This document shows positions 9,044 to 35,953 of a stretch of DNA of 64,000 bases, one piece after another (positions within the stretch are counted from its first letter, which is position 1; each line of letters begins with the position of its first letter). The position numbers and the translations under genes were made by a program. The notes below the pieces were generated by a model, which made no database searches, was not told the origin of the DNA, and saw nothing but the letters and a program-made list of their open reading frames with translations. The DNA is from a virus, in the IMG/VR virus record IMGVR_UViG_3300048625_000299, positions 170,865 through 234,864 of that record. The stretch is one strand, 5' to 3'.

Positions 9044-9058
9044 TAAATGGAGTTAAAA

Positions 9059-9490: not shown

Positions 9491-10166
9491 TGGCTTTGTA
9501 ATTATTGCAACTTCCAAGAGGAAGTATTTGATCTCGGCAATTAATACTGCCGAGTCAATCAAAGATTATTATCCCGAAGCATCAGTAACATTATACACAA
9601 CGCCAGACATACTTGCCGACAATGATGTCAGTATGTTCGACGAAGTGATCACTGATGGAGTGCCACGCGACCGCCGTGCAAAGCTATGGGCACTTAGTAG
9701 AACGCCATATGACACGACGGCATACTTAGATGCAGATACGGTCGTCGTGTCATATGAGATAACCGATATCTTCGATCAGCTTGGTGATAGCGATATCATC
9801 TTTACCAAAATTAGACAGTACAACTCCAACCCAAAAGGGTACCTCGAAGACCCTGAGTATATCCGACATGGTGGGGTGTTTGTGTATAATAATAAACCAG
9901 ACACACTGAAATTCATGGAGAACTGGTGGACGTTGTGGTTGACTACTAGATCGATTGAAGATTACAAACTTGCATATCCTGAGTACCCAGCACGCATGAA
10001 AGAGTGGGACCAATTCTACTTGTTCTATTTGGCTAAGCATACAAACCACAACCTCAAGTTAGGTTTCTTCGAAGATGATGCTCGCTGGAATTTCGTTAGT
10101 GGTTATTTACGCAGCGAGCTGAATGGTAAGCAACCAATCATCGAACACTATACCATTAAAGATTAA
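9456..10166 (+). CDS. Glycosyltransferase-like protein (nucleotide-sugar transferase fold)
   Basis: The protein has a GT-A type layout. A first strand FVIIATSKRKYL near residue 15 is followed by a LDADTVV motif (D92-A93-D94), the DxD signature that binds the divalent metal and nucleotide sugar. A GGVFVYNN segment and a distal EWDQFYLFYL segment follow, as in glycosyltransferase-8-like and phage nucleotide-diphospho-sugar transferases. It overlaps the previous gene by 35 bases. The start is uncertain: GTG at 9456, TTG at 9465 and GTG at 9474 are all possible. Likely substrate: a surface glycan of the host or a glycan on a virion protein; neither donor nor acceptor can be told. Confidence 0.7.
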   Translation: MNQLKKVPKPNNGFVIIATSKRKYLISAINTAESIKDYYPEASVTLYTTPDILADNDVSMFDEVITDGVPRDRRAKLWALSRTPYDTTAYLDADTVVVSYEITDIFDQLGDSDIIFTKIRQYNSNPKGYLEDPEYIRHGGVFVYNNKPDTLKFMENWWTLWLTTRSIEDYKLAYPEYPARMKEWDQFYLFYLAKHTNHNLKLGFFEDDARWNFVSGYLRSELNGKQPIIEHYTIKD

Positions 10167-10170
10167 TATT

Positions 10171-10860
10171 ATGATTTTCGCGAATAGATTACCATCCGAC
10201 CTTGTCGCTGACCTATACAAATTCAGCGACTGGTTCTTCAGTCAGCAGCTAGAGGATAGCGTCAAAATGACGCCTAAGAACCTCGATACTCAGTATGCTG
10301 TTAGTACTGAGTATCTCGAACTGATGAAATCGAGACCAGATAATGTCGGGTATCCAGAAGAGGCACATGGGGCCGACTTCAGACATGTTGGCGCATATGA
10401 TACAAATTTGTACTTCGATCGTGTGCAAGAGATCGACCGCAAACTAATGAGTTTTACTGGCAGCCACAACAACGCTCTTAAAATGTATTACCCGCCAGGT
10501 GGATATATTGGATGGCATAACAATGCCAATGCGCCTGGATATAATATCTTGTTTACATATAGCGAAACAGGCGAAGGCGACTTCCGATACATCCATCCAC
10601 AAACAGGCGAGTTGGTGATTATGCCCGATCGCAAGGGGTGGAGCTGTAAGGTTGGATATTATGATATCGTAGATGGCAACCCATTGTGGCATGCTGCATG
10701 GACAGGTTGTAATAGATTAAATTGGGCGTATATCATTCATCCTGCTCTTTGGGCAAGCTTAGCCGAAGAGTTGGAAATTGATATCGACGCTATAACAAAC
10801 ATATTCGGACGCGATCCTACAAATGATGAAGCTGCATCAAAGCTGGTTAGAAGAGGTTGA
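10171..10860 (+). CDS. 2OG-Fe(II) oxygenase-like protein
   Basis: I place the start at the ATG at 10171 (MIFANRLP), just after the upstream stop. The 229-residue product contains MYYPPGGYIGWHNNANAPGY followed by a FTYSETGEGDFRY segment and a distal LWHAAWTGCNRLNWAY segment. This order (first His, later His, then Arg after a jelly-roll strand) matches a family common in T4-like cyanophages and usually labelled 2OG-Fe(II) oxygenase. The first metal motif is H-x-N rather than H-x-D, so activity is not certain. It probably hydroxylates a protein or small molecule. The next gene starts inside its 3' end. Confidence 0.6.
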   Translation: MIFANRLPSDLVADLYKFSDWFFSQQLEDSVKMTPKNLDTQYAVSTEYLELMKSRPDNVGYPEEAHGADFRHVGAYDTNLYFDRVQEIDRKLMSFTGSHNNALKMYYPPGGYIGWHNNANAPGYNILFTYSETGEGDFRYIHPQTGELVIMPDRKGWSCKVGYYDIVDGNPLWHAAWTGCNRLNWAYIIHPALWASLAEELEIDIDAITNIFGRDPTNDEAASKLVRRG

Positions 10861-11449
10861 TGGCGATGTCGGTGTGTTCTGGTCCTCTGGGCTAGAGTCA
10901 ACGTTGTTGCTGCTCATGTGCATAGAGAAGTATGGTAAGGATAGAGTACATACCTTCACACAAAAGTTTCCACATGATGATCCCTTTGACCGAGCAGTCA
11001 AGCACTACCACTACTTTGCAGACGCACTTGCAGATGAGATGGGGCTGTGCAACCATCATACAGTAGAGGTTGGTTCGGGGGGATTGAATAGCAACGAAGT
11101 CCGAATCGATTTATACAACGCTGCTATCAAACTTGTTCCGAATATCGAGGCGATATATGTTGGGGTTAATACTACACAAGTTGGGCGTCTCATAGACCCA
11201 ACACAACGTCAAATCGTAGCGGACGCATGGGATACCGCAACCCTAATAAAAACACCTTTCATGGACATCAAAAAATACGAAGCGATTAAGATGTTTTATG
11301 AATATGGATACAGTCAGTGGATTACTAGCACGCGATCGTGTGCTAGGTCTACAGTATATCATTGCGGTAGATGCTCCAATTGTACAGAGCGGAAGATGGG
11401 GTTCGATCAGGCCGGCATACAAGACCCAACGACTTACATGATCGATTGA
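10823..11449 (+). CDS. PP-loop ATPase, QueC-like (7-cyano-7-deazaguanine synthase family)
   Basis: A P-loop of the PP-ATPase type is present as SSGLEST (residues 21-27; the family norm is SGGxDS/T). The C-terminus carries C173 and the cluster C181-x2-C184-x2-C187 in HCGRCSNCTERKMGF, which corresponds to the zinc site of QueC. QueC converts 7-carboxy-7-deazaguanine to preQ0 with ATP and ammonia; in phages this can feed deazaguanine DNA modification. No queD, queE, folE or dpdA/tgt-like partner is seen in this window, so a different ATP-dependent adenylation role is possible. The gene overlaps its upstream neighbour by 38 bases. Confidence 0.65.
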   Translation: MMKLHQSWLEEVDGDVGVFWSSGLESTLLLLMCIEKYGKDRVHTFTQKFPHDDPFDRAVKHYHYFADALADEMGLCNHHTVEVGSGGLNSNEVRIDLYNAAIKLVPNIEAIYVGVNTTQVGRLIDPTQRQIVADAWDTATLIKTPFMDIKKYEAIKMFYEYGYSQWITSTRSCARSTVYHCGRCSNCTERKMGFDQAGIQDPTTYMID

Positions 11450-12135
11450 ATCATTCTAACATTTGGGTTAAATTCATCTCCCAACCATAACCAATCTTCT
11501 TGGAATTCTGATAGATAGAGCTCATTGTATTCTACAGCATGGTCTCTATCTTTTGGTTTACGTGCAAAAGAATTACGCGGCTCAAAGTGTGATAATTTGC
11601 CACCACGTTGGCGTATAATCTCATCAACGAAGTTTTGCTCCCCATTGATTGGTGGGAGTGCCACCATTAAGTCGATAATGTAGCGCTGCATCCAATAGCG
11701 CGGCGATGTATGAAATGTTTCGGGGATGCATTTGAAGTCTCCGCCATTGAACTTATACAGCCCACCGTTGATAGTAAACCCTTCGCCCTTCCATCTAGTC
11801 CACCATCTGTATGGGGCAACCAATTCGTTAGGCGAAACGTGTTGGTTGAATATATCAGTGACATCGTCCACAAACGTCCAATCGAGATCAGACACGAAAC
11901 AAACCTGACCTTCCGGAGCCATGTTAAAGAAATCAACTTTGTGCCATTGTCGTCTCCCATCGTCATTTTCGATCGGAATCACCTCTATGTGTTTGCCAAA
12001 TTCAGACTTATCGTAAGTGGTGTAGCAGTGCAGTTGTAGCGGCAGATTTACATGATCTTTTAGCTGTCTGTAAAATCTTTCCACATGATTGGGCGTGTAG
12101 TTGGGCCCAGTGCAAACTGTATAAATCGGTATCAT
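11434..12135 (-). CDS. Glycosyltransferase-like protein
   Basis: This 233-residue protein starts with a Rossmann-like strand (IPIYTVCTGPNYTP) and has a DxD motif, D83-L84-D85, in FVSDLDWTFVD. A GEGFTINGGLYKF segment follows, typical of acceptor regions in phage GT-A enzymes. It is the last gene of a three-gene minus-strand operon and its start overlaps the methyltransferase stop by 4 bases. It converges with the QueC-like gene, overlapping 16 bases. Likely transfers a sugar to an unknown acceptor. Confidence 0.65.
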   Translation of the reverse strand: MIPIYTVCTGPNYTPNHVERFYRQLKDHVNLPLQLHCYTTYDKSEFGKHIEVIPIENDDGRRQWHKVDFFNMAPEGQVCFVSDLDWTFVDDVTDIFNQHVSPNELVAPYRWWTRWKGEGFTINGGLYKFNGGDFKCIPETFHTSPRYWMQRYIIDLMVALPPINGEQNFVDEIIRQRGGKLSHFEPRNSFARKPKDRDHAVEYNELYLSEFQEDWLWLGDEFNPNVRMIQSIM

Positions 12136-12734
12136 AACTTCTGGATTGCTACTTGCGATGAGTCAGGAATGTCCAATACCTCGATTCTATTCCAGTTGCA
12201 GTGTATGAAGGAATCTATCGCCAGTCTAGGAGATAGAGATGGATCGCCCGACTTTTCTTTTGCTGAGTGTTTAGTGTATTTCCAACGGGTTGCGTCGTCT
12301 AGTAGTATAACGCCCCCTTGCCGTATTAATTGGAAGCAACGAACAAGATCTTCAAGTACAGTTGCTGCAGTGTGATCGCCATCGATATAAATGAAGTCAA
12401 TTCCTGAACCGATTCTGTGGATCACGTCCGATGATGGGATGTTATAAAAAGTAATCTTATCTCTATGAGTGCATTGGTTCATGTTGTCCACGAAGCGATC
12501 TTTTACAATATCCAGTACTGTCTCATCAACTTCGTAGTTTCCTTTAAACGGATCGATCGCTACGTGATTGACGATCGATGGATAATTGTCTACCATCCAA
12601 AACGTAGTGCGGCCTTCGAATACGCCAATCTCCATCGTATAAGATGGGTTGATAATATGCTTGTCAAATATGTGCTTAATATTCTTGGTACTGGCTTTTG
12701 CCCAATCTACGATATAATTGTAGCTCACTTCCAA
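12132..12734 (-). CDS. Class I SAM-dependent methyltransferase (Methyltransf_24 type)
   Basis: A 200-residue protein with motif I as MEIGVFEGRTTFW (residues ~34-46) for SAM binding. The post-II/III region is FIYIDGDHTAATVLEDL (about 115-130), then GGVILLDDATRW. The IDGDH motif is characteristic of methyltransferases that act on sugars or polyketide/glycan scaffolds, and of cephalosporin hydroxylase-like relatives. It sits between two glycosyltransferase-like genes with short overlaps on both sides, so glycan O-methylation is a reasonable inference. Confidence 0.75.
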   Translation of the reverse strand: MEVSYNYIVDWAKASTKNIKHIFDKHIINPSYTMEIGVFEGRTTFWMVDNYPSIVNHVAIDPFKGNYEVDETVLDIVKDRFVDNMNQCTHRDKITFYNIPSSDVIHRIGSGIDFIYIDGDHTAATVLEDLVRCFQLIRQGGVILLDDATRWKYTKHSAKEKSGDPSLSPRLAIDSFIHCNWNRIEVLDIPDSSQVAIQKL

Positions 12735-13402
12735 TACTCCTTCACGATCGGGTCATCTAATACGTCTGTTGGCTTAGGGTGGCCATGAAATATACACACA
12801 GCGTACGATGGACGATATTTAAATTTAGCGCCGTCGCATAGATCAGCGCCACGGCGATAAGAGTAAACCTCTCCTCGAGGAATAGTAGCGACTGGCAGCT
12901 TCTCGTGCCACAGGAAGCGATCGACCCCTTTGTACGTCGCCATATGTCTTTCTGGGTCTTGCATGAAGTGCTCGTATATTGACGATGCGTCCTTCCATAT
13001 CATTATGCTGGAATTATACATCGTATTGCGTTCCATCCAATCCGAGAGAATGATTGGATCTTTCCAATAAGCCATGCATACAGTCAAGCTGTCGGAGGCT
13101 AGTTCAAATAGGTGGTCGATGTTTCCATGAATGACTACGTCTAGGTCAAACAGCATCTTAACGTCATACTGCTCTAACTTAGGATGAACAAGAATGGGAA
13201 GCTTAAACCACCACGTCTCGAAGTCATGCTTGGATTCGATTGGCAGTATGTGGATCGATTGATCGATCCCAGTAGGATCATCGGTGTAGCAATAAATAGG
13301 GGTGAGTGGATCACCCCAACGCCGAAGCATCGATGCTAGATTGTTAACATATTCGGCCGAGTATTTTTGGCCCCACTTCAGACAGACATAACAAGTTTTC
13401 AT
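12725..13402 (-). CDS. Glycosyltransferase-like protein
   Basis: The first gene of the minus-strand GT-methyltransferase-GT operon, 225 residues. It shows an N-terminal beta strand (KTCYVCLKWGQKYS), a DxD motif at D86-L87-D88 in MLFDLDVVIHGN, a YNSSIMIWK acceptor segment and a C-terminal CIFHGHPKP motif. This His-containing end is common to a group of bacterial and phage transferases in which it lines the metal site. A GATAAATA late-promoter-like octamer lies 27 bases upstream on this strand. Confidence 0.7.
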   Translation of the reverse strand: MKTCYVCLKWGQKYSAEYVNNLASMLRRWGDPLTPIYCYTDDPTGIDQSIHILPIESKHDFETWWFKLPILVHPKLEQYDVKMLFDLDVVIHGNIDHLFELASDSLTVCMAYWKDPIILSDWMERNTMYNSSIMIWKDASSIYEHFMQDPERHMATYKGVDRFLWHEKLPVATIPRGEVYSYRRGADLCDGAKFKYRPSYAVCIFHGHPKPTDVLDDPIVKEYWK

Positions 13403-13424
13403 ATTATAATGTGTTGAGGAACGT

Positions 13425-14462
13425 ATGTATATTTATCGTGATGGAATAGAATCTTTGCACATCGAGCTTACAAATAAATGTAACGCTCGATGTCCCCAGT
13501 GCTCGAGAACGAATAATGTAGAGATTGAAAATAGCCAAGTAGAGATCACAATACAACAGTTCAAGTCTTTTTTTGATGTTGGGTTCATCCAAAAACTGAA
13601 GAAGGTTAAGTTTTGTGGGAATTTTGGCGATCCTGCGATGGCTAAAGACTGCATCGCTATACACGAATACATTACTGATTGCAATCCTAACATTAACCTA
13701 TCATTCGATACCAATGGCGGCATCCGCACGACTACGTTTTGGAAACAACTAGGTAGATTCTACATTGACAAGCCAGAGAGCCATATAATATTTCATATCG
13801 ATGGTTTGGAGGATACCAATCACATATACAGAGCAGATGTCAGCTTCTCCAATGTAATGAAGAACGCAAGGGCGGCGATTTCGACTGGTGCGAATGTGGT
13901 TTGGGCATTTATTCCATTCATGCACAATGAGCATCAAGTAGAGGAGGCTGAGCAAATATCAAAGCAAATGGGATTCACTACGTTTGCTGTTAAGATAAGC
14001 TCGAGGTTTGAACATAAGCTCAAACCATTTCCATACCGCGATTCTAAAACAGGAATCACCAAGCACATATATCCAGCAACCTCTTCTGAGTTCAACGTGA
14101 ATGCATTATTAGCCAACCTTGATGAGCCGGTATGTGCTGCAGAAAAAAGGAAAGAAGTATACGTAGATGCTAGAGGCAGAGTCCACCCATGCTGTTGGTA
14201 TGGGTCGGGGTATGAGACTAATCAAGATTTTAGACAAGCCGTCGATGCTCAACATAATCCTCACCTGAACGCCACGCCAATATGCGATGCTACTAATACA
14301 CAACTATTCCACAACATCAAACAAGCATGGACGGTAGCAGACAACATACTAGCCAAACCTTGCCACAAGAAGTGTAGTGGTAGAGTGATGAATTTCTGGA
14401 TGATAGATGGCGAAATTACACCACAGAAGAACTACGCTGAATGGCTAAGGGAAGACCTATGA
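13425..14462 (+). CDS. Radical SAM protein with C-terminal cysteine-rich (SPASM-like) region
   Basis: The canonical CxxxCxxC motif is present as C19-NAR-C23-PQ-C26 for the SAM-binding [4Fe-4S] cluster, followed by KFCGNFGDP (equivalent to the GGEP motif) and LSFDTNGG. The C-terminal third has further cysteines in VCAAEKRK, VHPCCWYG and PCHKKCSG, suggesting an auxiliary iron-sulfur cluster. The GAGG ribosome binding site lies 6 bases before the ATG. Related proteins occur in T4-like aquatic phages without a known substrate. The gene is transcribed divergently from the glycosyltransferase operon and couples to the next gene. Confidence 0.8.
   Translation: MYIYRDGIESLHIELTNKCNARCPQCSRTNNVEIENSQVEITIQQFKSFFDVGFIQKLKKVKFCGNFGDPAMAKDCIAIHEYITDCNPNINLSFDTNGGIRTTTFWKQLGRFYIDKPESHIIFHIDGLEDTNHIYRADVSFSNVMKNARAAISTGANVVWAFIPFMHNEHQVEEAEQISKQMGFTTFAVKISSRFEHKLKPFPYRDSKTGITKHIYPATSSEFNVNALLANLDEPVCAAEKRKEVYVDARGRVHPCCWYGSGYETNQDFRQAVDAQHNPHLNATPICDATNTQLFHNIKQAWTVADNILAKPCHKKCSGRVMNFWMIDGEITPQKNYAEWLREDL
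13430..13437 (-). promoter_or_regulatory. Late-promoter-like octamer (GATAAATA), glycosyltransferase operon
   Basis: Read on the minus strand, GATAAATA lies 27 bases before the ATG at 13402. It sits inside the first codons of the divergent radical SAM gene. Confidence 0.5.
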
Positions 14463-15046
14463 TATTCACAACCGATGTTGGTAATATAAATGTCACAATT
14501 GCTGACGTTATCACGGATGATTTTCAGTTCTTGATGGATGGTGCAGCGGCAGAGCGGGCCATTGATTATGCACGACTCGAGTTAGGAAAGAAGTATGAAT
14601 ATAGCGTCGTACTTTCATACAATAGCATACCATATGGTTTCTTCTTGATGTGTAATGGAGGCAGATATGCACCCAACGTGCTACGCGTATACACCAAGCT
14701 GTATACTATACCTCAGTTCAGATCCGCAGCTAATATAGATAAATTCCTGCTGCCAGGAGACACTGCTGGCAGAGTGATGTATCAATCGCATAGTATAATC
14801 GCCAACTTCGTTGAGGATATACTACCGACAACAGAAATCAAACCATACGATTTATACTTCTACTCGCGCGCTCCTGGAGACACTCTGATAGTATCGCTGA
14901 TGAATAAATTCGCAAGAGTCAAATGGACTGCCGTCGACGACATAGTGTTCCTTACAGGGCGGAAAGAATCAGATCCGCACTGTTGGAAGCATATTGTATA
15001 TAAAGGCGACTTGGCGGCATTCACTCAACCATCAAGACCTATTTAA
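14459..15046 (+). CDS. Hypothetical protein coupled to the radical SAM gene
   Basis: The ATG at 14459 overlaps the radical SAM stop (ATGA), giving a 195-residue product starting MIFTTDVGNINVT. It has mixed alpha/beta content, with Y-rich segments (YEYSVVLSYNSIPYGFF, VLRVYTKLYTIPQF) and no cysteine cluster. The central part loosely recalls acyl- or acetyltransferase folds, but I see no diagnostic GNAT motif. The coupling suggests it works with the radical SAM protein. It converges with the desaturase gene, overlapping 15 bases. Confidence 0.6.
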   Translation: MIFTTDVGNINVTIADVITDDFQFLMDGAAAERAIDYARLELGKKYEYSVVLSYNSIPYGFFLMCNGGRYAPNVLRVYTKLYTIPQFRSAANIDKFLLPGDTAGRVMYQSHSIIANFVEDILPTTEIKPYDLYFYSRAPGDTLIVSLMNKFARVKWTAVDDIVFLTGRKESDPHCWKHIVYKGDLAAFTQPSRPI

Positions 15047-15730
15047 TATCCGAACGATCGCAGCACCCAAATCCCATTTGCCGAATACTGGATCACGTGG
15101 ATGTTGGTGGTGGTGGTCGTGGTAAGTTTCGCCAGCTAGTAGCCAAGCGAGATATGGCCTGCTGATTGCTTTGCCGTCCTTATGTCCGAGGTAGTTCACT
15201 GAAGCCTGTCCTAAGAACCCATATGTATTGATAATGGTCCACGATATAGGACCAAAGAGTATGCTCATCACTACAAACCCAAGTATTGCGACCGGTAGGT
15301 AGTACTTCATTTGAGCTTGGTACAGTGGATTGCGTAAATTTGTTTTATTGGCGTATGCCATATTAAAATCATAATATGCAATCATCAAGTTAGCCCAAAG
15401 CCCCTTATGTGGACCGTGTGGATCTCTGTCGGTGTCGACGTATCTGTGGTGCTTATTGTGTGTCGCTGCCCACGACAGTACTTGCGTAAACGCAAAAGCC
15501 GCACCGAGCACCAAAAACATTACTTCTGCCCATCTAGGACATTCCCAAGCATAGTGCGTGACGTACCTGTGGTAATATGCCGACACTACGCCAGCCACAA
15601 TTACCATACCTGCTATGAACCAAAGAATATACACCCATTGTGGGTCAGTTATCAGTGTGTATAGTGTAAAGGCCGTACTAGCGAAGAATATTGTTTGTTG
15701 GATTATCTTTTGCATCCATGTTGGAATCAT
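15032..15730 (-). CDS. Fatty acid desaturase, acyl-CoA/delta-9 type
   Basis: This 232-residue membrane protein has all three histidine boxes of the SCD/DesC-type desaturase family: HRYVTH (54-59), HNKHH (91-95) and HDHHH inside ETYHDHHHQH (204-208). The additional NYLGH (~179-183) matches the asparagine/histidine di-iron ligand site. Hydrophobic segments lie at ~14-50, 70-88 and 144-170. It would insert a double bond in a fatty acyl chain using a di-iron centre and O2. It is the last gene of the ketosynthase operon and its start overlaps the previous stop (ATGA). The protein looks intact and catalytically complete, though shorter than most bacterial homologues. Confidence 0.9.
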   Translation of the reverse strand: MIPTWMQKIIQQTIFFASTAFTLYTLITDPQWVYILWFIAGMVIVAGVVSAYYHRYVTHYAWECPRWAEVMFLVLGAAFAFTQVLSWAATHNKHHRYVDTDRDPHGPHKGLWANLMIAYYDFNMAYANKTNLRNPLYQAQMKYYLPVAILGFVVMSILFGPISWTIINTYGFLGQASVNYLGHKDGKAISRPYLAWLLAGETYHDHHHQHPRDPVFGKWDLGAAIVRILNRS

Positions 15731-16731: not shown

Positions 16732-17856
16732 TCAACCTCTCTCTATAATCATACTTGCACACTTGCCGCCAAATCCAAATGAATTATTCAACGTCTTAGT
16801 AATTGCGCGTTTTGTTGGATGCATGACGACTCCTGCGTGCTTAGTGACCACACATCCTTGTGTATGTGGTACGATTCCACGGTTCATGGATATGATGCTG
16901 TAGATTGTCTCTAATACACCAGCGGCCGCAAACGTGTGTCCTATCTTACCTTTGTTCGAATACACAGGCAGCAACCCACAAACATCGATGATCGCATCAT
17001 ACTCTACTTCATCGCCACCCGGTGTAGAAGTTCCATGTGCATTGACTACGTCCGGACTGCCGCCGTATTTGATAGCTTGCTCCATTGCGGTCCTAGCACC
17101 CTCGCCACTAGGCAATGTGCGGTTAAATGCATCCGATGCGTGCCCAGCCGGATACAAATACCCATAAATCGTAGCACCACGGGCCTTGGCTTTTTCCTCA
17201 GATTCTAAAATAACGATACCAGCACCCTCTCCCATTACGAATCCGTTTCTAGACACATCAAATGGCATAGATTTATTTGACAATGCTTTGAATGATGAGA
17301 ATAGAGACATATCGATGTAGTTGACTCCAGCATCCGAACCACCAGCAACGACGTAATCATACTGGTCCACATATCGCATCGCGAAATCTAGTGTGACTAA
17401 TCCCGTCGCGCACGCGGAATAGATGCTGGTGTTGATGCCTCTAAACCCGTAGTATTGAGATACGAAGCCGCATAAAGCATCGACGGTGCTATTGATTCCC
17501 TTTTTAGGGCTAATCCTGTCCTTTACGATCATGTCGTATGTGTATTCATTGCCACCAGTCAACGATGATATGAATACGCCTACATTGTCTGATTTGGGAA
17601 CATTTGCATGTTTGAGTGCTCGGTCCACTGCATGCATTCCATATCGCATAGTTCTAGGTAGGAATCTCTGATCAAACCCTTCTGGAAAAACCTCAGATCC
17701 TTGCTCTGGAAAAAGCGACGTTTGGATATCGGTATTTGATACCAGGACGGAAGTATCGCGATAATATGAGTTGGAGTCGACCATTCTGTCGAAATTTTGC
17801 TCAGCATCATTCCCTAATGCATCGATTAATCCATATCCAGTCACGCAAACTCTCAT
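16732..17856 (-). CDS. Beta-ketoacyl-ACP synthase, FabF/KAS II-like
   Basis: This 374-residue protein carries the full condensing-enzyme signature. The nucleophile cysteine lies in YSACATG (C149). PFDVSRNGFVMGEGAG is the typical KAS II loop. The first catalytic histidine is in VNAHGTSTPGGD (H274), and the lysine and second histidine are in NKGKIGHTFAAAG (K302, H307). The glycine-rich end is NNSFGFGGKCAS. It is shorter than bacterial FabF (~413) but lacks no motif. It would extend acyl-ACP with malonyl-ACP in the host fatty acid pathway. I chose the ATG at 17856 because GGAG ends 5 bases before it; a GTG at 17859 is less well placed. First gene of a four-gene minus-strand operon. Confidence 0.9.
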   Translation of the reverse strand: MRVCVTGYGLIDALGNDAEQNFDRMVDSNSYYRDTSVLVSNTDIQTSLFPEQGSEVFPEGFDQRFLPRTMRYGMHAVDRALKHANVPKSDNVGVFISSLTGGNEYTYDMIVKDRISPKKGINSTVDALCGFVSQYYGFRGINTSIYSACATGLVTLDFAMRYVDQYDYVVAGGSDAGVNYIDMSLFSSFKALSNKSMPFDVSRNGFVMGEGAGIVILESEEKAKARGATIYGYLYPAGHASDAFNRTLPSGEGARTAMEQAIKYGGSPDVVNAHGTSTPGGDEVEYDAIIDVCGLLPVYSNKGKIGHTFAAAGVLETIYSIISMNRGIVPHTQGCVVTKHAGVVMHPTKRAITKTLNNSFGFGGKCASMIIERG

Positions 17857-17903
17857 CACAACTCCAATAATTTAATAATAGTATCTAGGCGATCTTGACA
17901 TCT

Positions 17904-17911
17904 TATAAATA
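17904..17911 (+). promoter_or_regulatory. T4-type late promoter (TATAAATA)
   Basis: A perfect TATAAATA octamer, the -10 element of T4 late promoters, lies 30 bases before the ATG at 17942 in the short divergent region between the ketosynthase operon and the tail fibre operon. Confidence 0.75.
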
Positions 17912-28109: not shown

Positions 28110-28652
28110 GTGGCTTTACCATCCTCCGGGTCGATTTCATTTTCGCAAATTAATACCGAGTTGGGTCGGAGTTCTACCGCCCAATTGAGCATGAACGATA
28201 GCGGTCTGCGGACGCTGTTTGGTATTTCGTCGGGCCAAATATCGATGAATAGTGGTTATGGTAAGGCTAATGCTTTCGTCCATACAGCTACGATTGCTGG
28301 TAATATAGCTAACTATGATCAGCGCGCCGCCGCAGTTGCGGCTGGTTGGGACCAAGTCAAACCGTTGAAATCGACGGTTACAATCGACGCTGGTGTGTAT
28401 GTTTATTCGGGCGGCACTGGATCTTATGCATACTCTACTGGATCTACCTTCCCAGCTGGCAGTCAATTGTACTTGATAAATAACGGTACAATTATCGGTT
28501 GTGGTGGTAATGGTGGTAGTGGTGGTGACCAGGCTGTTGGTAATGGTGGCGCTGGCGGCGGCCCTGCCTTATATGCAGGCTATGCTATCAGCGTGACGAA
28601 CAACGGCACTATCGCAGGTGGTGGCGGCGGCGGAGGCGGCGGCGGCAGTTAA
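28110..28652 (+). CDS. Glycine-rich tail adhesin, N-terminal half (split gene)
   Basis: The 180-residue product starts at GTG, 9 bases after GGAAGGG. It opens with a recognisable tail-protein head (MALPSSGSISFSQINTELG, then LFGISSGQISMNSGYGKAN). A middle domain contains YDQRAAAVAAGWDQVKP and STVTIDAGVYVYSGG, followed by LINNGTIIGCGGNGG and SVTNNGTIAGG plus ten further glycines and a serine. Intact homologues I recall continue through a long polyglycine domain and finish with a GNxNITWxxxGTR end. That missing end is encoded at 30930-31337. The stop here is TAA-TAA inside the glycine tract region, so the gene looks broken by an insertion. Confidence 0.75.
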   Translation: MALPSSGSISFSQINTELGRSSTAQLSMNDSGLRTLFGISSGQISMNSGYGKANAFVHTATIAGNIANYDQRAAAVAAGWDQVKPLKSTVTIDAGVYVYSGGTGSYAYSTGSTFPAGSQLYLINNGTIIGCGGNGGSGGDQAVGNGGAGGGPALYAGYAISVTNNGTIAGGGGGGGGGGS

Positions 28653-28670
28653 TAATATTTTGAGGTTGTG

Positions 28671-29525
28671 ATGGTTATATTTCGTTATTCTAAACTTGAT
28701 TTCTTTTTGGTGTTGTATGCGGTTGCTGCTTGTATACTTCCATTCATCATATCTCAATATAGCGTGTGGGTGTGGTTGCTAGCGGCCCCACTGCAGGCAA
28801 TTTTCAACGTGGTGGTTATGAACACTTGTATGCATCACCACGTACATACGCCTTTATTTCGATACCAGTTCCTCAATAGGGCATATGAGCTACTTACTAC
28901 AGTGGCCGTTGGTATTCCATTTCAGTCATGGAAATGGTTTCATCTTACACACCACAAATACAACAACGACGCTAAGAAGAATGGTATCGTAAACGATCCA
29001 GTGACATTTTATCGATTCAGTGAACCAGGCGTTCGCGAGAATGTGTGGATGTATTGTGTGTATGGCGTGTGGAGAGATCTGACTGGTATTACAGCAAACG
29101 ATGCAAGCTGCACAAATCGCATACAAATAAATCATCCAGACCGCCTGCGTACAGAGGTGTGGGCGTTCGGTTTGTGGTTCCTAGCGCTGTTTGTATGCAA
29201 CGTGTGGTATGGGGCGTTTTATATTGCAGTATACTTACTGAGCTTGGTTCTCAATCAGGCCAACAGCTATGGTGAACATTACTTAGCAACTGATCCCGCG
29301 AATTTCAGATCCGACTCGGTAGGAAGCTACTCTTGGTGGTTCAATACATTTTGTTTCAACTCTGGTTATCACCAAGAGCACCATGTACGCCCGGGCGTAC
29401 ATTGGACTAAGTTACCAGAACTTACATTCAGTTTGCCTAGCAACAGACATACCATAAACGGGATGTATATGTTCAATATTCCATGGTATAATGATCTAAA
29501 GAGTTTGATTCGAGGCAATAAATGA
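28671..29525 (+). CDS. Fatty acid desaturase (PF00487-like), second in window
   Basis: This 284-residue membrane protein starts at the ATG at 28671, 5 bases after GAGG (GTG at 28668 is too close). Histidine clusters are HHHVH (55-59), HLTHH (91-95) and YHQEHH (H234, H237, H238), followed by VHWTKLP, matching the HxxxH/HxxHH/HxxHH pattern of membrane di-iron desaturases and hydroxylases. Hydrophobic segments lie at residues ~10-50 and 165-195. It belongs to a different subfamily from the delta-9-type enzyme at 15032. Acyl substrate and regiospecificity are unknown; a hydroxylase or carotenoid-type activity is possible. Its stop overlaps the start of the radical SAM gene. Confidence 0.85.
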   Translation: MVIFRYSKLDFFLVLYAVAACILPFIISQYSVWVWLLAAPLQAIFNVVVMNTCMHHHVHTPLFRYQFLNRAYELLTTVAVGIPFQSWKWFHLTHHKYNNDAKKNGIVNDPVTFYRFSEPGVRENVWMYCVYGVWRDLTGITANDASCTNRIQINHPDRLRTEVWAFGLWFLALFVCNVWYGAFYIAVYLLSLVLNQANSYGEHYLATDPANFRSDSVGSYSWWFNTFCFNSGYHQEHHVRPGVHWTKLPELTFSLPSNRHTINGMYMFNIPWYNDLKSLIRGNK

Positions 29526-30916
29526 GTTACAGTAAATTTGAGACGGATGGTGGTATCGTATTCTACTACGATAACCAGACAAATAACATATTAGAGGCTG
29601 ATGGCACACCGTTGTTCGTCTCTACGAGGGATGAGCAATATGAAGAGTTTGCGGCAGCGAACTACTCAACACGAAAGAAGAATAGAGCCCCTACAGCAAT
29701 ACGTTTGTTGATGGGCCATGCGTGTAACTTTTCGTGTACATATTGCATGCAGAAGGATATTGGTAACCCAGATGAATTACCAAAGAATAAGGGCCTTCAG
29801 TCGTTATTCGATTCGGTATCGTCGAATTTAGATCTCTCTAACCTACAACGATTGGAGTTATGGGGCGGCGAGCCTTTTTTATATTGGAATGATATGGTCG
29901 AGATTATGTCGTTCTTTGATTCCAAGAAGATGACATTCGGCATCACGACTAATGGGTCAGCGTTGTCGTTGAAACATGCTGAGTTTTTCAGCCAACTGAA
30001 CGCCCATGTGATTGTCACCATTTCCCATGATGCTGAAAAGCAACAAGCGTTGAGAGGTGAAGATCCGCTGTCTCGTTCGCGCGTTATACAGACGCTCAAG
30101 CAATTTGATCGTGTGGATAATGTCACGTATGGGTTCCTATGTTCAATCACGAATACTAACTTTGACCTGTTTGAGATTAACGACTTCTTCCGTGGAAAGA
30201 TTATTGAACATGGATTGAATACTAACAGCTTATCGTTTTCGCTCGGTAGAACTTATAATGAGAATGAGGGATACAATCCTTCGTCGGCTCTCGGTTGCAA
30301 CATCATCGAGGACATACCACAAGAAAGTAGCTTTACGCACGTCATTAGTGGCGACAACTTAGAAAAGTTTCGTACTATACTATCAGAGTTTCTCGAACAA
30401 CATTATGTACAATTAACGAACTCTATTGTGGATGGGCAACCGACGATCTTTGGTAAGTCTGCATCTGAAACGCCGTTACTATTATGTGACATATACGAAT
30501 CAATATTACCATACTCAGTGGTTGAGTATGCGCGCAAAATAATTGGTGGTGAGCAAATTTTAGAGAGTTCTAATTGCGGTGCTGATATGGCCGATGTATT
30601 GTCGATCGATATCGACGGGTCGATCCGCACCTGTCCTCATGCTGGCAAGGACCATATTATGGGCAATATAACCAGCATTGCATCATCGCGCATCATCCCT
30701 ATTACGCTCGGCCGAAAGACGACACATTGTACTGATTGTGTTGTGAATAAGCTGTGTCGATCATCGTGTCCAATAAATCTACCAACCGAAACCTTTCTTA
30801 CAAACTGCCGCGTAGAAAAGATCTGGTATGGGGAAATTCAAAAAGCGGCGTTACGTCTAATTATGGACGATTGTGTGAAGATGGTGTCAACTGGCATCCA
30901 AAACATAAATAGCTGA
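29522..30916 (+). CDS. Radical SAM/SPASM domain protein
   Basis: This 464-residue protein has the radical SAM motif C68-NFS-C72-TY-C75, a WGGEPFLYW motif (SAM amino group) and FGITTNGS. The SPASM region has CGADMADVLSIDIDGSIR, TCPHAGKDHIMGNI, then CTDCVVNKLCRSSCP and a final NCRVEK cysteine, enough for two auxiliary [4Fe-4S] clusters. SPASM proteins modify peptides or proteins (sulfatase maturases, RiPP maturases such as sactipeptide and cyclophane enzymes). It is coupled by ATGA to the desaturase, and a glycine-rich protein is encoded immediately on each side, either of which could be its substrate. This is inference. Confidence 0.88.
   Translation: MSYSKFETDGGIVFYYDNQTNNILEADGTPLFVSTRDEQYEEFAAANYSTRKKNRAPTAIRLLMGHACNFSCTYCMQKDIGNPDELPKNKGLQSLFDSVSSNLDLSNLQRLELWGGEPFLYWNDMVEIMSFFDSKKMTFGITTNGSALSLKHAEFFSQLNAHVIVTISHDAEKQQALRGEDPLSRSRVIQTLKQFDRVDNVTYGFLCSITNTNFDLFEINDFFRGKIIEHGLNTNSLSFSLGRTYNENEGYNPSSALGCNIIEDIPQESSFTHVISGDNLEKFRTILSEFLEQHYVQLTNSIVDGQPTIFGKSASETPLLLCDIYESILPYSVVEYARKIIGGEQILESSNCGADMADVLSIDIDGSIRTCPHAGKDHIMGNITSIASSRIIPITLGRKTTHCTDCVVNKLCRSSCPINLPTETFLTNCRVEKIWYGEIQKAALRLIMDDCVKMVSTGIQNINS
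30903..30910 (+). promoter_or_regulatory. Late-promoter-like octamer (CATAAATA)
   Basis: CATAAATA overlaps the last codons of the radical SAM gene and lies 19 bases before the GTG at 30930. With the GGAGG that follows, it could give the downstream adhesin half its own late expression. Confidence 0.45.
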
Positions 30917-30929
30917 TTGGAGGTCCAAC

Positions 30930-31337
30930 GTGGATAAAGATTACATTCTTAGAAAAAGACTCGTAGCGTGTGGTGCGTGTGCTAGCGTATCTGCCGGCGG
31001 TGGTGGCGGTGGTGGCGGAATTGGTGGAAGTTCGGGTGGCGCAGGCGCAGCTGGACAGTATGGCGCGGCTGGTGGTAGTAACCCCGCGGGTGGCGCGGGT
31101 GGTGGTGGCAGCTTAACGGGTGCGGGCGGTGGCGGTGCTGGTGGTCCAGCATACCAATATCGCTACGCTGGTGGTGCAGGTGCGTCTGGTGGTGGTCAAG
31201 GATCCGCCGGTGGCACTGGCGCGACGAGTGGAGCTGGAAGAGGCGGTGGCGGTGGTGGTGCAGCGGGTGCAGCTGTAGCAGGTAATGCAAATATTACGTG
31301 GTTAGCCGTTGGTACGCGAAATGGGAGCGTCGGCTAA
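30930..31337 (+). CDS. Glycine-rich protein, C-terminal half of split adhesin
   Basis: The 135-residue product begins at GTG, 7 bases after a strong GGAGG. The first ~22 residues (MDKDYILRKRLVACGACASV) are charged, contain two cysteines and do not look like adhesin. From residue ~23 the protein is a polyglycine domain (GGGGGGGG, then GGxGGxxG runs) and closes with GNANITWLAVGTRNGSVG. That end is typical of glycine-rich phage tail adhesins whose head is encoded at 28110-28652. Polyglycine-II bundles with variable loops bind receptors in T4-like gp38-type adhesins. It may act as a separate subunit, a remnant, or a radical SAM substrate. Confidence 0.7.
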   Translation: MDKDYILRKRLVACGACASVSAGGGGGGGGIGGSSGGAGAAGQYGAAGGSNPAGGAGGGGSLTGAGGGGAGGPAYQYRYAGGAGASGGGQGSAGGTGATSGAGRGGGGGGAAGAAVAGNANITWLAVGTRNGSVG

Positions 31338-31819
31338 TGTACAAGCTAATAAAATTCGATGAAAAGGCTGGCCAGCTATACGTATTGTTTACTGCTACAG
31401 GAGGAACGATCACCATCGATCTGCCTGTAGAGAATGGGCTGTATATAATCGGTGACGCTCTAGACTCATATATCAAGGGATTTATACCCGATTGGGTTCT
31501 TCAGCGCAAACAGCTGATCGATAGCGGGATTCCAAACTCAGACGCGATTGCAAGTCTCATATACACTCCTACAGAAGAAGAGCAACTGCTCGAGATGGCA
31601 ATCGCTGCTCGTAAGAGACGCGACAAGGCTCTCAACGATTGTGACTGGTGCCTACTCCCAGACTCTGGGTTCAATAAAGAAGTTATTGATGACCTGCTAG
31701 TATACAGACAAAAGCTAAGAGATGTACCACAGCAACCAAAGTTTCCGCACGAGATAGATTGGCCGACGAGCAATACGTGGGAACTTTGGGAGAAACAAAA
31801 ACGAATGCAAGGCGCATAA
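31337..31819 (+). CDS. Tail fibre assembly chaperone-like protein (PF16778 type)
   Basis: I place the start at the ATG at 31337, overlapping the previous stop (TAATG), giving 160 residues (MYKLIKFDEKAGQLY). The C-terminal half has ARKRRDKALNDCDWCLLPDSG and VYRQKLRDVPQQPKFPHEIDWP, the pattern of phage tail fibre assembly chaperones (AxRxxxLxxxDWxxLPD ... YRQxLRDxPxQPxFP). It probably helps fold or attach the glycine-rich adhesin encoded just upstream, as chaperones of this class normally follow the protein they serve. Confidence 0.8.
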   Translation: MYKLIKFDEKAGQLYVLFTATGGTITIDLPVENGLYIIGDALDSYIKGFIPDWVLQRKQLIDSGIPNSDAIASLIYTPTEEEQLLEMAIAARKRRDKALNDCDWCLLPDSGFNKEVIDDLLVYRQKLRDVPQQPKFPHEIDWPTSNTWELWEKQKRMQGA

Positions 31820-32625
31820 TGATTAATCCAGCCATCAACATATTCATACCAGATTATCTCCAGCAAGATGTCCTAATGCAGGAAGTACATTCGCTAGTCG
31901 ATGCGGGTAAAGTTGTAATTGGCAACCAGCAAGATGCTGAGTATGTAATGAGAAGCGACTATCATAATGATATTGACATACAGCAGGCGATCACATCTCC
32001 TAATGCCGACAACTATATTTACTTAGAAAACCGTCTGTTATTCCTACGACACTTGGATGCGTTTGCTGGTAAGTTCCACCCATACATCGCTCAGGCGTTG
32101 ACTGGGGTGTCGATGTACGACCTCGTTCCACCTTCATACTTTGTCCCTACGGCAGCAGCCGATATTACTAACAATATAGATGCATCTAAGCAGTATGCCA
32201 TTACACATAGTGTAACAGGAGAGCGCTTTGTAAGTAGTGATGTGTTAAGTATGTTTACTGAGGAAATGTATCAGACGAATATGCAAAATGCAAACTTCAT
32301 TTCTACAGATCCGGCGCGAGGATCGTGGGTCGTTGAAGAGTTGCATGATCATGCTACACCAACAATTATCAAGGGCATTGCATGTCGCCCGAAAGATCTT
32401 GCCACGACAGCATCGATGTTAGGTGTGTTGGTGGAATATGATACACCCATCGAAGATGAAGCGCTTGCCCGCACAATAACTTTATTTGTTCAGCATACGT
32501 TCTACTACTATGGCACACACTTCGAGCTTAGTGTGGCTATGAAAGATGGGCGTCTATGTATCGATGGATTGAGGACGTTCGTTGATTTGCAAAATCCTCG
32601 TATTGAGAAGGTTTATTGTAATTGA
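31819..32625 (+). CDS. Hypothetical protein
   Basis: The start is the ATG at 31819, overlapping the chaperone stop (TAATG), giving 268 residues starting MINPAINIFIPDYLQQ. It is an alpha/beta protein with no cysteine cluster. A SWVVEELHDHATPTIIKGI segment and an HFELSVAMKDGRLCIDGLR segment hint at an enzyme, possibly ATP-grasp-like, but no nucleotide-binding motif is clear. It converges with the Dph6-like gene, overlapping 13 bases. Function unknown. Confidence 0.6.
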   Translation: MINPAINIFIPDYLQQDVLMQEVHSLVDAGKVVIGNQQDAEYVMRSDYHNDIDIQQAITSPNADNYIYLENRLLFLRHLDAFAGKFHPYIAQALTGVSMYDLVPPSYFVPTAAADITNNIDASKQYAITHSVTGERFVSSDVLSMFTEEMYQTNMQNANFISTDPARGSWVVEELHDHATPTIIKGIACRPKDLATTASMLGVLVEYDTPIEDEALARTITLFVQHTFYYYGTHFELSVAMKDGRLCIDGLRTFVDLQNPRIEKVYCN

Positions 32626-33266
32626 ATACGGCCGCTGATATCAACAACGGTTAATACTGGTGCATTGAAGCAGTTGCCATTGGTGACTATCGTCTGCATA
32701 GTTGAGTAGATGTTCAGAGCATCGGTATTTAAAGCATCGATAATATCCTGGATAGGAACAACCCCATTGATATCATATGGCGGTTTTGGTTGGCTCTTGG
32801 AGTAATTGTACATCCGTATTTCGAGGTCTTGCTCAACCAAATCAGCAACAAAACCAGCTTTATAGTCGCTTAGGTAGGGCACGTATATCGACATGCCCAC
32901 CGATTGTGCTAGCCTTGTGTAGAATAACTGCATATTTGCAATTTGGCTGCCATCGGCCGACACTATCAATACATCAGCGTCAGGATGTCTTGCTCTAAGA
33001 GCAGCAAGTCCCTCGGCCCATGCCAAATTAGTTGCCTCTCTCACCATATCAGCTGGGTCGACCGATCGGAACTCTACATCGGATATTCCGACAGCATTCG
33101 CTATAGCGTGAACCACATCTGGATGTACATCATTAACGACACCATCGCTGCTGCTGTTGAAGTTGATGTGGAACGCAGCAACAATGTCAACTCCATTTCT
33201 TCTTGCCTTTTCGATTGATAGGATGGTATCTTTGCCACCGGAAAATAGTGCTATAGCTTTTTTCAT
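32613..33266 (-). CDS. PP-loop ATPase, diphthamide synthase (Dph6)-like
   Basis: A 217-residue protein with the PP-loop FSGGKDTILS (S9-T14) near the N-terminus, typical of adenylating enzymes of the Dph6/MJ0570 branch. A VLIVSADGSQIANMQ segment and a VPYLSDYKAGFVADL segment follow. These enzymes activate a carbonyl with ATP for amide or thio transfer; Dph6 amidates diphthine in archaea and eukaryotes, and bacterial members have other or unknown roles. It follows the 2OG oxygenase gene by one base on the minus strand, so the two likely form an operon. Confidence 0.75.
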   Translation of the reverse strand: MKKAIALFSGGKDTILSIEKARRNGVDIVAAFHINFNSSSDGVVNDVHPDVVHAIANAVGISDVEFRSVDPADMVREATNLAWAEGLAALRARHPDADVLIVSADGSQIANMQLFYTRLAQSVGMSIYVPYLSDYKAGFVADLVEQDLEIRMYNYSKSQPKPPYDINGVVPIQDIIDALNTDALNIYSTMQTIVTNGNCFNAPVLTVVDISGRIQLQ

Positions 33267-33267
33267 A

Positions 33268-33909
33268 TTATTGAATCTTTAGGTTGCTTCCATACCCGCC
33301 AGCAGTCTCGGCGGTCTTGTTATATCTAGCCCACGTATTAGTTGCCTTGCTGAAGTCCCCATACACGAAGGCGCTGAAACCGATTACTTCGCGGTGATCA
33401 TCATTCTCTACGTAGTGATATAAATTGCCGGGGAAAATGACAACATCCCCTACACTACAGTCCAAAGTAACCATTCCTTGATTGTATGGAGTCTCTTTAT
33501 CGTATGGAAATTGAAAATCAAACGATTTGAAATATGGGCCATCGCAAATGATTTTAATTGGCGATTTTGGTGATTTCGTTAAGTACATACATCCTGCCAC
33601 CAGCGCATTGTGGTGTAGATGTACACCCTGCGACATTCCAGGATCGCTCATCGCATGGATGGATGTTGTAATTTTCATGTATACATCTGTCGTTGTACCA
33701 TATACTTCCTGAAGATATTTGTTACATATCGCCTCTAAATTGAGCTTAATATCTTGCAAATCCGGATGTTCGAGTATGTTGGATCCTATGGTATTTCGGG
33801 TTCCGTTCATCGGAATATGGTCCATCTCCCTCATTAGACGTAGCTGTGGCTCTGTAGGCATTGCGCAAGGCTCTACCATGATGGCGGTGGGTTTGATGTT
33901 CAGGATCAT
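33268..33909 (-). CDS. Putative 2OG-Fe(II) oxygenase (PF13759-like)
   Basis: I choose the ATG at 33909 (MILNIKPTAIMVEP), 213 residues, because a longer frame would run into the divergent gene and a late-promoter octamer sits 26 bases upstream. The core reads GVHLHHNALVAGCMYL (metal site), KIICDGPYFKSF, then GDVVIFPGNLYHYVENDDHREVIGFSAFVYG with the distal histidine and the 2OG-binding arginine. This is the layout of phage and cyanobacterial oxygenases that hydroxylate unknown targets. Confidence 0.75.
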   Translation of the reverse strand: MILNIKPTAIMVEPCAMPTEPQLRLMREMDHIPMNGTRNTIGSNILEHPDLQDIKLNLEAICNKYLQEVYGTTTDVYMKITTSIHAMSDPGMSQGVHLHHNALVAGCMYLTKSPKSPIKIICDGPYFKSFDFQFPYDKETPYNQGMVTLDCSVGDVVIFPGNLYHYVENDDHREVIGFSAFVYGDFSKATNTWARYNKTAETAGGYGSNLKIQ

Positions 33910-33914
33910 AAATA
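33907..33914 (+). promoter_or_regulatory. Late-promoter-like octamer (CATAAATA), plus strand
   Basis: CATAAATA lies 43 bases before the prolyl-hydroxylase-like gene at 33958. It overlaps the start codon of the minus-strand gene. Confidence 0.4.
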
Positions 33915-33935
33915 GCGAGGTGGATTGTTTTAGTG

Positions 33936-33943
33936 TATTTATT
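33936..33943 (-). promoter_or_regulatory. Late-promoter-like octamer (AATAAATA), minus strand
   Basis: Read on the minus strand, AATAAATA lies 26 bases before the ATG at 33909, so both divergent genes have a late-type element within the same 50 bases. Confidence 0.5.
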
Positions 33944-33957
33944 ATTCGAGGCATGTT

Positions 33958-34521
33958 ATGTATGATGTGGATATCAGTCGAGCGTGGACACGACACGAGT
34001 GTGACGAATTGATCGATTGGTTCGACAATTGTGAGCAAAAAAAGCACGTGAGTGTGGACAGCGACGTCATATATTCCCGGCACGGCACTGGTACTGAGAG
34101 CAAGATCGATGCTGGCCGATATGAGTGTGAATATGTAATGACATACTCGCTCGATGAAGAGCAAACGCCTTTTATAAGAGCAATTAGATCCACAATTGCC
34201 CAATGTCTGCGCCCCGACGTCACGTTCGATTGGGCATCGATTGTCAAAACATATCCAGGGTGTGGAATGGCGACGCACATCGACCGTGCTACAATCGATA
34301 CGGATAATAAATTAGCAACCAAGCGAGTATACACTTGCATACTATATTTGAACGATGAATATGATGGTGGGCGGTTGGTCGTTCCGCCATCATTGCGGTA
34401 TAAACCGGTCGCTGGATCGCTATTACAGATGGTCGGTTCTGACCATTTACATGGCGTCGAAAACATAGAGAAGGCATTCCGTTACACTATGAGTGTATGG
34501 TTTACAATAAATGATATTTAA
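33958..34521 (+). CDS. Prolyl 4-hydroxylase-like 2OG-Fe(II) oxygenase
   Basis: This 187-residue protein has a KTYPGCGMATHIDRA segment with the H-x-D metal motif, then TCILYLNDEYDGGRLVVPP, and the distal SDHLHGVENIEKAFRYTMSVWF with the second histidine and the 2OG-binding arginine. Spacing matches the P4Hc fold common in T4-like phages. It would hydroxylate a protein side chain or small molecule with 2-oxoglutarate and O2. It overlaps the radical SAM gene downstream by 11 bases. Confidence 0.85.
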   Translation: MYDVDISRAWTRHECDELIDWFDNCEQKKHVSVDSDVIYSRHGTGTESKIDAGRYECEYVMTYSLDEEQTPFIRAIRSTIAQCLRPDVTFDWASIVKTYPGCGMATHIDRATIDTDNKLATKRVYTCILYLNDEYDGGRLVVPPSLRYKPVAGSLLQMVGSDHLHGVENIEKAFRYTMSVWFTINDI

Positions 34522-35953
34522 AAAAGCAGCAATAATTAGCTTTGGTGTAATTGCAGAAGAGAAGCTGCCGATATCTCTTGCGTGGCTATCAGGCGTATTT
34601 GAAAAGCAGGACATAGATTACGAAGCATACGATTTCAATCACGAGCTGTATGTGTCTATGAGTCTGGATCAGTATAGATCACTACGGCATAATATGCTGA
34701 AGGATCCGCAGCAGGAAATCGTCGACGTCATCGATGATATAATTGGCCGCATTAAAGCCCATAATATAGATCTATTATCGGTGTCTGTATTTTCATATAG
34801 ACAATTTGATATTGCTCGTGTGTTTTTAGAAAGATTCGCTGCGCTCGGTGGATCAGAAGTACGCATCATAGGAGGCCCTGGCGTTTGGTATATGCCTCCT
34901 GGTACGGGCAAGACTTGTGGATATGAGCTCGTTGTAGATGGATTGATAGATTATTATGCACTCGGCAACGGTGAAGAAGTTATTGTGGATTTTCTGCGCG
35001 GAGTGGACGCATCTAAGCTCGTAGGAATGAACAGCCTAGCAAAACTAAAAACTAGCGACCATCAAGAAGAGTGGACTGAGTTAGTTAGGAAGATACAAGA
35101 GAAGTACATCGAGCCAAGCTACCGCAAGATTCCAATTCTTAACCATCTCAAGGAAAAGAAAGAGATCCTCATCACCGGCGCAAATGGTTGTCCTGGCCGA
35201 TGTGCATTTTGCTCGATAAGACAATACATTCCATTTCCATCATATCGAGAGGGAGTGGACGTTGCCAATGAATGTTATCGTCTTTTCCAGCAAACAGGTG
35301 TGACTAAGTTCAGACGGACCGACGCCCTTGCTAACGGACATACAAAGCATTTCCGAGCATTCAATGAACGGATAATCGAGCTCAAGAAGCAAGATCCTGC
35401 GTTTACGTTCCAGTATAATGCTATGTTCTTGCCTAAGAGTCCGACCATACAAAACGACGATTACTACCGCACAATGGCTGAGGCTGGATGCTCGTCGTTA
35501 GATCTCGGGATCGAGTCTGGATCGGAGAGATTGCGTATACAGATGCACAAACCATATACCGATAAAGAGCTCGACTGGCATTTTGCTATGTGTCAGAAAT
35601 ACGGCATCAAGAATAACATTTCGATTTTTGTCGGATTCCCGACTGAAACGGAAGAAGACTTCCAACAAAACATAAAGATGTTGGAGCGGTATCAAAAATA
35701 CATAGCTGATGGCACGTTTAACGAGATTCAGCATTGTGGTAAGTTTGTACTTTATACGAAAACATATATTTACGAGAATTTGGAAGAATTCGACGTTATG
35801 ATTATGGACGAAACCTCTGATCCAATCCAGTGGATATGCACAACAAATCAAACCAATACTCCAGATGAGCGCTTACGTAGGGAGCATGTATTTTTACAAA
35901 AAGCGCGTGAGCTAGGGTATAGGGTGGATGTGTATGATTCGGCCGATAAGTAG
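34511..35953 (+). CDS. Radical SAM protein, B12-binding-type architecture
   Basis: A 480-residue protein whose N-terminal ~200 residues resemble a cobalamin-binding-like Rossmann domain (AIISFGVIAEEKLPISLAW, DLLSVSVFSYRQF, VRIIGGPGVW). It lacks an obvious DxHxxG cobalamin ligand. The radical SAM core has C227-PGR-C231-AF-C234, a DLGIESGSERLR motif and SIFVGFPTETEEDF, as in Elp3/MiaB-type radical SAM sequences. Possible chemistry includes methylation or methylthiolation. It overlaps the prolyl-hydroxylase-like gene by 11 bases. Confidence 0.8.
   Translation: MIFKKAAIISFGVIAEEKLPISLAWLSGVFEKQDIDYEAYDFNHELYVSMSLDQYRSLRHNMLKDPQQEIVDVIDDIIGRIKAHNIDLLSVSVFSYRQFDIARVFLERFAALGGSEVRIIGGPGVWYMPPGTGKTCGYELVVDGLIDYYALGNGEEVIVDFLRGVDASKLVGMNSLAKLKTSDHQEEWTELVRKIQEKYIEPSYRKIPILNHLKEKKEILITGANGCPGRCAFCSIRQYIPFPSYREGVDVANECYRLFQQTGVTKFRRTDALANGHTKHFRAFNERIIELKKQDPAFTFQYNAMFLPKSPTIQNDDYYRTMAEAGCSSLDLGIESGSERLRIQMHKPYTDKELDWHFAMCQKYGIKNNISIFVGFPTETEEDFQQNIKMLERYQKYIADGTFNEIQHCGKFVLYTKTYIYENLEEFDVMIMDETSDPIQWICTTNQTNTPDERLRREHVFLQKARELGYRVDVYDSADK

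Follow-up and report, generated by a model that had tools for sequence, protein, structure and literature searches.

A split gp38-like phage adhesin and its radical SAM/SPASM partner, a candidate tail-tip maturase

The window analysed here is the final 64 kb of the 234,864-base virus record IMGVR_UViG_3300048625_000299. It encodes a polyglycine adhesin in two halves, the N-half and the C-half, separated by exactly two genes: one for a desaturase (PF00487, 6.5e-28) and one for a radical SAM/SPASM enzyme (PF04055, 2e-8), referred to below as rSAM (Table 1). The N-half product ends inside polyglycine (...NNGTIAGGGGGGGGGGS); the C-half product opens with MDKDYILRKRLVACGACASVSA, continues as polyglycine and terminates in GNANITWLAVGTRNGSVG. 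The desaturase and rSAM genes overlap by 4 bp (ATGA), and the spare bases at the two junctions number 15 (28653–28667) and 13 (30917–30929). An earlier note on this DNA had described both open reading frames with these ends, the coupled pair between them with few bases to spare and a GGAGG belonging to the C-half itself, all of which we confirm. The late-promoter-like octamer that it also proposed did not hold up: CATAAATA lies one mismatch from TATAAATA, exact copies of which occur only at 17904 and 61035, no more often than expected by chance. The C-half stop overlaps the start of a tail assembly chaperone gene (TAATG), and this chaperone lies directly downstream of the C-half in most relatives.

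Table 1. Features of the split-adhesin locus, in window coordinates
Feature	Positions	Strand	Remarks
Adhesin N-half, 180 residues, GTG start	28110–28652	+	Attachment domain, first beta-helix part, long polyglycine helix at end
Polyglycine tract and stop of N-half	28618–28652	+	Aligned to S16 gp38 helix 3 (residues 151–158)
Fatty-acid-desaturase-family protein	28668–29525	+	PF00487
Radical SAM/SPASM enzyme (rSAM), 464 residues, proposed maturase	29522–30916	+	PF04055
CNFSCTYC, the CxxxCxxC radical SAM cluster motif	29723–29746	+	
Seven-cysteine SPASM region, C352 to C429	30575–30808	+	All invariant in 18 aligned relatives
GGAGG ribosome-binding site of C-half	30919–30923	+	
Adhesin C-half, 135 residues	30930–31337	+	Leader, polyglycine helices, final beta-strand
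Conserved C-half leader MDKDYILRKRLVACGACASVSA	30930–30995	+	22 residues
CGAC motif, proposed rSAM target	30969–30980	+	Invariant in 11 aligned C-halves
GNANITWLAVGTR, family C-terminal strand	31281–31319	+	
Phage tail assembly chaperone	31337–31819	+	PF16778, Phage_tail_APC; start overlaps C-half stop

Relatives were found by searches with the N-half, with rSAM and with the codons of the C-half leader, and are mostly metagenomic contig fragments. Besides the window, 12 further viral contigs encode the C-half as a gene of its own (L009, L010, L011, L016, L018, L022, L023, L025, L027, L028, L029 and L030, some with more than one locus identifier). The two halves are adjacent in seven of them (L010, L022, L023, L025, L028, L029 and L030), rSAM stands between them in L009 and L011, and the desaturase and rSAM together separate them in the window and in a sister phage, present as contigs L014 and L018 of a single sample, which repeats the arrangement at 74–82% identity. 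Wherever both halves can be read in an rSAM-linked relative, they are two genes. Comparison of the window with the sister phage gives ratios of nonsynonymous to synonymous substitution (dN/dS) of 0.12 for the N-half and 0.14 for the C-half. These low values indicate that both halves are working genes under purifying selection, in keeping with the earlier suggestion that the second half is still made, and together with the recurrence in the sister phage they make the arrangement more than a chance one. rSAM is present in every C-half contig that extends far enough; the sole contig without it, L016, starts 105 bp before the C-half. In L023 a single rSAM accompanies two N/C pairs.

All separate C-halves open with [KRS]-R-L-[IV]-[AG]-C-G-A-C followed by glycines, and R10, L11, C14, G15, A16 and C17 are invariant in the 11 that were aligned, despite varied codons. 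The leader, which had been taken for a foreign sequence of about 22 residues, thus contains the most conserved stretch of the C-half. A scan for the GCGAC pattern returned only chance matches apart from the split-adhesin contigs, and a pattern scan of genome contigs returned chance matches only.

Three other explanations of the break or of the leader were considered and set aside. Stop read-through or frameshifting that joins the halves is not the rule, because the frame offsets between adjacent halves are inconsistent: the distances from N-half start to C-half start are not multiples of three in L010, L022, L023 and L025. A lipobox, and hence a lipoprotein, might be read into LVAC, but the leader has no hydrophobic stretch (judged by consideration, with no prediction run). 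A split intein was likewise only considered; general domain scans turned up no intein domain in either half.

We also weighed the proposal that a desaturase–rSAM cargo pair had inserted into an intact adhesin gene and broken it in two. In the window lineage both genes do sit between the halves, but the halves are separate yet adjacent in the seven contigs listed above, the leader is conserved and, far from being cargo, rSAM is the constant partner of the split adhesin. In a maximum-likelihood tree of rSAM the enzymes of split-adhesin loci form a single group (99/97), sister to enzymes encoded beside CECQC-type proteins. Within this group the window falls with L023 (81/89), where the order is N–C–desaturase–rSAM, and L009 and L011 fall with L022 (99/100), where it is rSAM–N–C. 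On this tree adjacent halves are the more parsimonious ancestral state, and we regard the insertion of cargo into an intact gene as very improbable. The simplest history, given the adjacent halves of the seven contigs and these placements, is that two adjacent genes came first and that other genes later came to lie between them twice, once in the window lineage and once in that of L009 and L011.

Uninterrupted relatives, which the earlier note had suggested seeking and aligning, were found: L012 encodes two and the isolate Limnohabitans phage YIMV22061 one. The L012 proteins, used as queries, returned no further relatives among viral contigs or phages. Joined halves align with these uninterrupted gp38-like adhesins over their whole length, and against PF05268 (GP38; cutoff 25 bits) the YIMV22061 adhesin scores 25.2 bits and the joined halves of L028 score 23.2 bits. 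Because the L028 halves are in frame, they were modelled as a single chain, in which Q stood in for the stop as a device of the modelling only. Confidence is approximately 85–97 in the N-half domain and low in the polyglycine and the C-half. The only convincing matches to this model in the Protein Data Bank (PDB), found with Foldseek, are gp38 of PP01 (9v85_C, E = 5e-4) and gp38 of S16 (6f45_D, E = 0.025). The joined fold and the end-to-end match bear out the idea that the two products are parts of one adhesin. We interpret it as a two-chain receptor-binding protein of the gp38 type, for which a location at the virion tip is predicted.

The long helix 3 of S16 gp38 is GGGGGGGG, residues 151–158 (PMC6851490). 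In PP01 gp38, loop B (residues 161–170) follows the polyglycine helix and lies at the distal tip, and residues 158–170 are essential for adsorption (PMC12892980). In our alignment the N-half ends in S16 helix 3 and the C-half leader spans the loop formed by S16 residues 159–166, before the next glycine helix. The alignment places the cut in the distal loop that links polyglycine helix 3 to helix 4, at the position of gp38 loop B. Because the leader aligns with that position, the receptor-facing tip most likely has two free chain ends, one of them carrying the Cys motif. The adhesin shares with gp38 of the T2/S16/PP01 type (PF05268) its polyglycine helices and their order, the beta-helix and the C-terminal strand, a likeness seen in both the Foldseek and the Pfam comparisons. 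It differs in three respects: T-even gp38 is one chain, whereas the window adhesin is two proteins cut in the helix 3–4 loop; unlike gp38, the split adhesin carries a conserved leader with Cys and is paired with rSAM; and its N-terminal attachment part looks different in sequence.

The CxxxCxxC motif and the seven-cysteine SPASM signature are intact in 17 of 17 members of the rSAM family tested. The AlphaFold model of rSAM has a pLDDT of 83 and is closest to CteB, a thioether-forming enzyme, followed by the anaerobic sulfatase-maturating enzyme (anSME), ChlB, TigE and SkfB; a profile search against the PDB agrees with these neighbours. CteB (which acts on SCIFF), TigE, ChlB, SkfB and PapB share the cluster motif, the SPASM cysteines and the fold with rSAM. 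As with these peptide maturases, a substrate candidate with a conserved leader and cysteines, the precursor-like R-L-x-x-C-G-A-C, is encoded beside the enzyme. Their substrates, however, are small secreted peptides, whereas the substrate proposed here is a full virion adhesin, and the phage enzyme misses all of the specific family cutoffs. It belongs to PHROG 1802 (9.6e-41), described as a phage radical SAM protein with no function given, as do the enzymes of Achromobacter phages JWF and 2-1; the records consulted propose no function for it. No relatives of rSAM were present in the plasmids searched, and no transporter or peptidase was seen near it.

Glycine-rich repeat modification (GRRM) systems also place a radical SAM enzyme beside a glycine-rich protein. 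The present system differs from them: the 25 best NCBIfam matches of rSAM do not include the GRRM model, the conserved target here is Cys and the distant members of the rSAM family adjoin proteins that are not glycine-rich. We found no description of the rSAM–adhesin pairing in the literature searched, which does not prove that none exists.

The structural kinship with anSME raises the question of whether rSAM might instead oxidize a tip cysteine to formylglycine, the aldehyde of which could bond covalently with amines of the host surface. The JWF homologue is annotated as an anaerobic sulfatase-maturating enzyme, anSME is the second-best fold neighbour and the sulfatase motif, [CS]-x-[PA]-x-R, is matched by C-G-A at positions one to three. 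The arginine of that motif is missing from the leader, however, rSAM scores 44.5 bits against a cutoff of 349.45 for the anaerobic sulfatase maturase model TIGR03942, and the CNCNCNC and CACACAC repeats described below are unlike single formylglycine sites. We consider formylglycine formation unlikely.

Beyond the split adhesins, distant members of the rSAM family (approximately 23–45% identity) adjoin tail proteins with terminal Cys repeats. They include Cys-repeat tail proteins in L003–L007, some with the adhesin N-terminal domain and with up to about 20 Cys, CECQCQC tail proteins beside rSAM in L033–L040, and, in phages JWF and 2-1, a fibre that has a motif of the NCNCDCNC type and is encoded two genes upstream of rSAM. 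A Cys-motif protein is encoded at 24 of the 24 rSAM-family loci checked; a terminal C.C.C or CGAC occurs in one of 497 background viral open reading frames. We note that in the JWF (L001, 6817–8268) and 2-1 (L051, 1742–3184) fibres the repeat directly precedes a Hint-like segment, CFPAGTMVLMADG, whereas in the window the Cys motif leads a split adhesin half. Self-processing at this segment could expose the repeat as a C-terminus. L146 encodes on its reverse strand (5630–6542 of the reverse complement) a run of three small proteins, each ending in an NCNC-type repeat, and after them a family rSAM.

The association was also examined blind to the enzyme, by scanning viral contigs for the codons of CNCNCNC; the counts given here are among the 120 stretches listed. 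Members of this family, some Cys-repeat ones among them, went into the rSAM profile, but it played no part in choosing the scanned loci. A locus was evaluable if its motif was C-terminal and the contig extended at least 3.5 kb downstream. rSAM was found at all 32 evaluable CNCNCNC fibre loci and at none of the 53 out-of-frame control loci; taking every in-frame locus, the comparison is 44/67 against 0/53 (Fisher p = 4e-16). At 50% identity 57 fibres fall into 15 clusters, and rSAM is on the same strand in 8/8 evaluable clusters. Other CxCxCxC matches elsewhere in the present phage genome look like chance. The association of rSAM with Cys-motif tail proteins is thus near-perfect across unrelated fibre types.

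Two further explanations meet this result. The Cys motifs at the tail tip might bind a metal or an Fe–S cluster or be joined in disulfides, with rSAM acting on another target or indirectly; CGAC and CxCxC repeats could serve as ligands, and the modification of cysteines that we favour is a prediction. Such binding would leave unexplained why the motif needs rSAM (32/32 against 0/53 among the matches listed), and we consider it doubtful, although it is, with formylglycine, one of the two main chemical rivals. Alternatively, rSAM and the desaturase could be auxiliary metabolic genes of host lipid or heme metabolism that lie among tail genes by chance. Published counts of ahbD auxiliary genes have included viral rSAM/SPASM genes (PMC9301287), and a further desaturase and a ketoacyl synthase are encoded by this phage at 15–18 kb; the near-perfect association across unrelated fibre types makes a metabolic role for the pair quite improbable. 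The desaturase alone may still have such a role.

In our view, the locus probably encodes a two-chain gp38-type adhesin together with a dedicated rSAM/SPASM maturase that modifies the Cys motif of the C-half. We infer three things: the enzyme acts on this motif, it yields a thioether, and the tip so modified touches the receptor. The cut in the helix 3–4 loop would give the C-half a free N-terminus, R-L-[IV]-[AG]-C-G-A-C, at the receptor-contacting tip; rSAM would recognize the leader and modify the cysteines in it, most likely linking them to nearby residues through thioethers in the manner of CteB-like maturases. The modified C-half would then assemble with the N-half on the fibre, probably aided by the downstream chaperone. 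Splitting would leave the Cys motif with a free terminus, and the CNCNCNC motifs of the other fibres are likewise terminal.

Several points weigh against this interpretation. rSAM scores far below every specific NCBIfam maturase cutoff (the best, PapB, NF047865, gives 68.9 against 340 bits), and no RRE leader-binding domain was identified in it; it has N-terminal strands (residues 3–24) and a conserved FYYDN region. The joined-halves model has weak polyglycine and C-half parts (mean pLDDT 64), and the helix order derives from sequence alignment of low-complexity glycine tracts. At L041, a distant rSAM locus with 29% identity, no Cys-motif protein is encoded nearby. The support consists of association and anatomy, with the chemistry deduced from them, and free cysteines might by themselves suffice for a function such as the binding of a metal. 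The L041 locus itself consists of five rSAM genes in tandem (8764–15171), and its contig, 543 kb long, is classed as viral.

Taken more widely, the balance tips slightly towards a large, undescribed class of tailed phages that covalently modify terminal Cys motifs at receptor-contacting fibre tips with their own rSAM enzymes, on substrates that include split gp38 adhesins (N-terminal CGAC) and many unrelated fibres (CNCNCNC-type C-termini). If this is true, host recognition in such phages depends on post-translational chemistry like that of ribosomally synthesized and post-translationally modified peptides, and host range would be set in part by enzyme-made tail-tip chemistry that sequence-based prediction of receptor binding ignores. 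The PHROG 1802 family, of unknown function, would gain a testable job. Tail maturation may then be the function of some viral rSAM/SPASM genes that are currently classed as auxiliary metabolic; 261 ‘ahbD’ rSAM auxiliary genes of speculative function are reported in Baltic viruses (PMC9301287), and some of these may belong to the present family. The conserved substrate–enzyme pairs are ready for enzymology in vitro, and two Achromobacter isolates carry the distant form.

The desaturase accompanies rSAM only in the window, the sister phage, L010, L023, L027 and L030; the L023 neighbour is 54% identical, and those near the system in L010, L027 and L030 are other desaturases. Because it is present with rSAM in some phages only, it may be an optional partner or separate from the system. 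Relatives of an ATP-grasp-like protein (L009, 8136–9446; PF14398 just under cutoff) lie downstream of the split adhesin in L009, L010, L011, L022 and L025. Elsewhere in the window are a second rSAM protein (13425–14462) and, on the − strand, a second desaturase/hydroxylase (15032–15730) and a beta-ketoacyl synthase (16732–17859). Beside the adhesin, the region 32613–35953 encodes two 2OG-Fe(II) oxygenases, an ATPase that resembles Diphthami_syn_2 with a score below cutoff, and a radical SAM protein closest to PhpK/B12 types; several of these modification-type genes recur in the sister contig L018, and L023 has a similar PP-loop ATPase.

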